Below are positions 49,860 through 50,580 of a stretch of DNA of 51,790 bases, piece by piece (the first letter of the stretch is position 1; every line of letters begins with the position of its first letter). Made by a program: the position numbers and the translations under genes. Source of the stretch: Dictyoglomus sp. (GTDB lineage Bacteria; Dictyoglomota; Dictyoglomia; Dictyoglomales; Dictyoglomaceae); NCBI GenBank assembly GCA_025060475.1, contig JANXBZ010000013.1, positions 1 to 51,790 of the forward strand. Direction: 5' to 3'. The notes below the pieces were generated by a model that did no database searches, had not been told where the DNA came from, and was given only the letters and a program-made list of their open reading frames with translations.

Positions 49860-50032
49860 GAATTTTTCCTCCTTTTTTTGACTAATATTCTATCATAAAA
49901 AGCAAAAAAAACTTAAGTTATAAAGCCCATTTAAAAGTGATAGTGGATTAACAGAATATCATCATAAAATGGATAAAACCATTTCTTAAACTAAGGTTAA
50001 AAATGATGGTTTTAATTGAGGAAAATTCTCCA
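49860..50032 (-). other. Leader region between the RNA gene and the DUF362 gene
   Basis: An inverted repeat TAAAACCAT (49974-49982) and ATGGTTTTA (50006-50014) lies between the RNA's U tract and the gene. A minus-strand TAGAAT near 49890 may start a separate mRNA. Confidence 0.4.
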
Positions 50033-50281
50033 AAAAATTTATGCCACAGGCTCAACGGACCCTTACAGAACCCTTCAACACTTTTCTGAGACTTTCAGCC
50101 TCAAGATTTAACCACCGATTTCGCAGGAGTACCAGGCTTTACTAATACTCCTACTACTCTCTAGTAGCTACCTGAGTACTTGGTATGGAGTCTCGCCCCA
50201 ACCTTTCCTCAGCTCTTGAGACTTACATTGTCCCAGCCAAGTGCATCCGAGCCCTTTCGGACCCCTTGATGCCTGTGGCAA
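50033..50281 (-). ncRNA. Independently transcribed structured RNA, possibly Dictyoglomi-1 RNA
   Basis: These 250 bases have no reading frame and are 50% G+C (120 of 240) in an A+T-rich setting. The ends pair: TGCCACAGGC (50042-50051) with GCCTGTGGCA (50271-50280), then TCAA with TTGA after a one-base bulge, 14 bp in all. Inside are further stems: 50246-50250/50257-50261; 50190-50194/50218-50222; 50128-50136/50171-50180 (9 bp, one bulge); 50154-50158/50163-50167. A promoter lies directly upstream and a six-U tract (50032-50037) directly after the closing stem, so a discrete minus-strand transcript is expected. Signatures of RNase P, SRP, tmRNA or 6S RNA were not found. The Dictyoglomi-1 RNA is recalled as having only a few known copies; identity is unverified. 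Confidence 0.8.
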
Positions 50282-50286
50282 TTATA

Positions 50287-50314
50287 ATTTTAACATAACT
50301 TTAAAGTTTGTCAA
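50287..50314 (-). promoter_or_regulatory. Consensus promoter of the structured RNA
   Basis: On the minus strand TTGACA (50309-50314), a 16-bp spacer and extended -10 TGTTAAAAT (TAAAAT, 50287-50292) predict a start at about 50281, the first base of the RNA's closing stem. Confidence 0.8.
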
Positions 50315-50550: not shown

Positions 50551-50580
50551 ATTTCAATACCTTATAGGCACGCTACAAAC
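50551..50580 (-). CRISPR. Orphan degenerate CRISPR repeat
   Basis: This 30-base unit reads on the minus strand GTTTGTAGCG-TGCCTATAAG-GTATTGAAAT. It has the length, the inner CCTATAAGG and the ATTGAAA(C) 3' end of type I-B repeats in thermophilic Firmicutes-like bacteria, the last eight bases being the usual crRNA 5' handle with a final C-to-T change. No second unit lies within about 70 bases on either side, so it is a lone or decayed repeat. The following 150 bases (50581-50732) hold no gene. Confidence 0.65.

Follow-up and report, generated by a model that had tools for sequence, protein, structure and literature searches.

The Dictyoglomi-1 RNA of Dictyoglomus as a probable stand-alone RNA gene with a strongly conserved closing stem

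The structured RNA encoded on the minus strand at positions 50042–50280 of the window (the whole 51,790-nucleotide stretch of Dictyoglomus sp. DNA analysed here) is, with near certainty, a member of the Dictyoglomi-1 family (RF01703). Dictyoglomi-1 is a known, uncharacterised structured RNA that, among the genomes searched, is confined to the heat-loving bacterial phylum Dictyoglomota. Sequence comparison makes it very probable that it forms a stand-alone gene; this reading is favoured because paralogous copies share a common footprint, the next genes differ, and RNase P, SRP, tmRNA, and a 6S candidate are found elsewhere in the window's genome.

Family membership and phylum range

The cmscan match to RF01703 was full length and scored 171.4 bits (E 4.5e-38) against an Rfam cut-off (gathering threshold) of 150 bits, which bears out the guess of Dictyoglomi-1 RNA made in the first-pass annotation. 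The window copy aligned end to end with model positions 1–236, and a permissive Rfam scan returned no other family. The same annotation had noted the absence of RNase P, SRP, tmRNA, and 6S motifs, and the Rfam scans, which matched RF01703 only, agree with it. Permissive scanning of the most divergent copy, from genome G002, gave RF01703 and a GAIT match at chance level only. Hidden kinship to another Rfam family was rejected on these scans.

Nucleotide 1 of the 239-nt RNA was placed at 50280, close to the earlier start estimate of about 50281, and nucleotide 239 at 50042. The idea that the window sequence newly defines the full length of the RNA did not hold: positions 1–236 of the Rfam model already span the whole closing stem, so the window copy does not define the ends. 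What is newly added here is the probable promoter and terminator footprint, obtained from paralogue comparison. At 50.2%, the G+C content of the RNA block stands above that of the window (31%) and of the intergenic flanks (26.0%), which matches the earlier description of a 50% G+C block in A+T-rich flanks. None of the listed reading frames of at least 60 aa overlapped the block.

DNA and model searches detected Dictyoglomi-1 in all seven Dictyoglomota genomes searched, often in two copies. G001, G002, G003, and G004 carried two each, and the window's genome, G005, and G006 one each (the last cut by a contig end), giving 11 copies in total. A model built from seven of the copies (R1) found none in 379 other genomes, under strict filters that very divergent copies could escape. 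An exact 20-base pattern of the 3′ stem, searched in a collection of 84,980 species, matched contigs of two Dictyoglomota genomes and gave four single matches in unrelated genomes, and R1 found nothing at these four loci. No copy was found in the viral contigs searched.

Weinberg et al. (2010) described Dictyoglomi-1 as a probable RNA and marked both a cis-regulatory and a riboswitch role with a question mark (PMC2864571). Compared with RF01703 as described there, the window copy has the same overall consensus structure and comes from the same phylum, but its helix P2 is in a different register from that of the Rfam alignment, and its first internal loop has lost AGUA. A search of the literature on Dictyoglomus expression found nothing relevant, and the literature searched yielded a single paper on this orphan family.

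Predicted fold and closing stem

The minimum free energy of the window RNA was −118.2 kcal/mol, compared with −70.3 ± 3.9 kcal/mol for dinucleotide shuffles (z = −12.2), and none of 200 shuffles was as good. The closing stem P1 is formed by a 5′ strand (UGCCACAGGCAUCAAGGGGUCC, 50259–50280, minus strand) and a 3′ strand (GGGUCCGUUGAGCCUGUGGCA, 50042–50062, minus strand). In the predicted fold it consists of 10 + 4 bp around a bulged A, in agreement with the 14-bp terminal stem seen earlier, followed by a G.G mismatch and 6 bp of GGGUCC/GGGUCC; P1 also contains tandem G.U/U.G pairs. The four further helices of the first-pass annotation understate the fold, which is a long stacked rod with two arms. 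Arm C (50172–50212, minus strand) is a hairpin with a GAAA/[AG]AGUA internal loop, and arm D (50109–50170, minus strand) is a 13-bp hairpin with an [AG][AG]GUA/GAAA internal loop. Helix P2 of the window copy pairs AGGGCUC with GGGUUCU, where the Rfam alignment has mismatches. GAAA-type strands lie opposite AGUA, GGUA, or GUAA in internal loops of arm C, arm D, and the main rod, and such AGUA/GAAA loops may be bulged-G or UAA/GAN-like modules. A fourth such loop, beside P1, retained AGUA only in the G003 and G004 copies. The separate copies, each folded to its minimum free energy, shared the closing stem and the overall layout, and at 70 °C the predicted fold partly loosened or rearranged in some copies.

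In an alignment of seven copies, built regardless of structure, 94% of the cells were paired, a percentage favoured by taking the tested structure from one of the aligned sequences; the double changes are not explained by this choice. Double changes were observed at 22 pairs; shuffles gave 11.2 ± 2.2, none of 500 reaching as high a value, and sliding the strands out of register left no more than 6. The covariation score was 0.315, compared with 0.237 ± 0.013 in shuffles. The covariation check over the Dictyoglomus copies thus shows that the helices covary.

Within this alignment, 17 of the 20 P1 pairs never varied. The G002 copies are 181 nt long, are without arm D, and fold as a single unbranched rod (z = −8.3). 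Over the whole RNA they were about 58% identical to the window copy, whereas their P1 strands were identical at 22/22 nt (5′) and 20/21 nt (3′). Judged from this comparison, the closing stem is conserved in sequence, beyond pairing alone, because P1 of G002 is near identical at such divergence of the whole. Both the near-invariant closing-stem sequence, kept despite divergence of the RNA to 58%, and the compact 181-nt unbranched form in one species may be new. The P1 invariance could reflect double duty as start region and terminator stem.

Promoter, terminator, and neighbouring genes

Upstream of the RNA, on the minus strand, a −35 element TTGACA (50309–50314) and a −10 element TAAAAT (50287–50292) are separated by a 16-nt spacer. 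This predicted promoter scored 11/12, ended 6 nt ahead of RNA nucleotide 1, and was shared between paralogues, in keeping with the TTGACA-16 promoter proposed earlier. The −35 element was kept in all copies with sequenced upstream flank except those of G002, where the promoter reads TTGATT-N16-TATAAT, and the −10 element was identical in the G003 to G006 copies. After the closing stem there is a U tract (50032–50037, minus strand) resembling an intrinsic terminator. The U-tract ending described earlier is real, modest in the window copy (UAAAUUUUUU), and a T-rich tract was found in every copy with a sequenced 3′ end.

The paralogues G002a/b, G003a/b, and G004a/b showed 80–100% identity over 30–40 nt upstream, and beyond this the similarity was mostly near chance. 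Downstream likeness was limited to the first 10 nt, which hold the T-tract (90% identity for G002a/b, 80% for G001a/b, 70% for G004a/b, and 60% for G003a/b). Paralogues in unrelated places have in common just the block from the −35 element to the 3′ T-tract. This footprint is the best evidence on the gene unit and indicates that the promoter and the terminator have been preserved together with the RNA as one; judged by comparison, the RNA has its own promoter and terminator, as a stand-alone RNA gene should. The footprint and the differing downstream genes give good support to the earlier argument for an RNA that stands alone and against a riboswitch.

These downstream genes belonged to seven unrelated families (DUF362/ferredoxin, MarR, SAM methyltransferase, sigma-like factor, HD protein, GH44, and GH28), with no constant link to one functional class. 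A neighbourhood of ABC transporter, DUF362, and GH44 genes was partly common to the window copy, G001a, G002a, G003b, and G004b. Within it the directly downstream gene differed, except that G003b and G004b had the same one, and in G001 an opposite-strand gene sits between the RNA and DUF362. The downstream gene changed here while the RNA stayed, which argues against a leader.

Identity was 87% between G003a and G004a and 90% between G003b and G004b, compared with 70–76% between a and b copies. As a groups with a and b with b, the two paralogues there predate both species. The two copies within G001 and within G002 were 98–100% identical, which suggests recent duplication or gene conversion. 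In the G001 assembly, contigs C37, C43, and C80 (loci L052, L050, and L051) break inside the near-identical copies, as expected for such a repeat, and only one 5′ flank was recovered. A separate observation concerns a solitary, slightly degenerate CRISPR repeat at 50551–50580 (plus strand), which precedes the RNA promoter by about 240 nt. It reads TTTCAATACCTTATAGGCACGCTACAAAC, compared with TTTCAATCCCTTATAGGTACGCTACAAAC for the genome's own repeat, of which contig C12 carries a long array. No second repeat was found near it and the motif was absent from the other Dictyoglomi-1 loci examined; it is probably the remnant of an array.

Alternative explanations and proposed role

A divergent universal RNA (6S, SRP, RNase P, or tmRNA) would suit the size and G+C content, and the G002 rod resembles 6S in outline, but this identity is very improbable. 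RNase P, large SRP, and tmRNA were each located elsewhere in the window's own genome, which refutes them as candidates. Like 6S RNA (RF00013), Dictyoglomi-1 appears as a stand-alone long rod of similar length, but it has no large central bubble; the Rfam scans gave no RF00013 match at its locus, and a single-copy 6S candidate exists in all seven Dictyoglomota genomes, above the Rfam cut-off in one. In the window's genome this candidate lies at G000:C3:35948-36209 (+) (locus L065); the Rfam model did not detect it at E 1, and similarity to the G001 6S match revealed it. The invariant terminal stem, with GGUCCGA in its 5′ strand, would also fit a Y RNA bound by Ro protein: we take this motif to recall the Ro site of Y RNAs, and in bacterial Y RNAs the invariant closing stem is likewise the presumed protein site. 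A TROVE domain was, however, found in none of the seven genomes, with a positive control search in Deinobacterium, and the Y RNA reading, which deserves hardly any credence, was rejected for this lack of a Ro/TROVE protein.

A MITE with 10-bp terminal repeats is scarcely credible. The perfect 10-bp inverted ends and the two copies in several genomes agree with it, but conservation extends 30–40 nt past the 'terminal repeat' into the promoter, which refutes it; moreover, the a and b copies keep their places between G003 and G004, and the helices carry compensatory changes. A cis-regulatory leader or riboswitch, with the T-tract as attenuator and the fold controlling the same-strand downstream gene, is unlikely. 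It draws on the question marks of Weinberg et al. (PMC2864571) and on the codirectional next gene in 9/10 copies, mostly 30–350 nt away; however, codirectional neighbours are common anyway and the loci are few. The downstream genes have no common function, a convergent gene faces G001a, paralogue similarity ends at the T-tract, and in G002b the interval from the RNA to the next gene contains a good promoter of its own (11/12; p 0.015 against shuffles). No significant separate promoter was found there in the other copies.

We favour a trans-acting RNA with a protein-binding closing stem. It is rather probable that Dictyoglomi-1 is a structured RNA gene with transcription of its own and vertical inheritance; its product would act in trans, with P1 as protein recognition site. 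A housekeeping-type promoter would start transcription at the closing stem or within 2–3 nt of it, and transcription would stop at the U tract, with the closing stem also serving as terminator hairpin. The discrete transcript of about 240 nt would fold as a rod with two side arms. P1, with its irregularities (bulged A, G.G mismatch, and tandem G.U/U.G), would be the putative protein recognition site, and the interior would serve as a scaffold in which shape counts more than sequence. Action as an RNA–protein particle through P1 is plausible, if tentative. On the doubtful side is the more specific proposal that Dictyoglomi-1 forms the RNA core of a phylum-specific particle, in which an undescribed protein would read the invariant P1 and the modular interior would be a spacer or scaffold, reducible to the 181-nt rod.

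Our results move the question of 2010 (PMC2864571) towards the 'RNA gene' side, and they point to the closing stem as the place to look for a binding partner.
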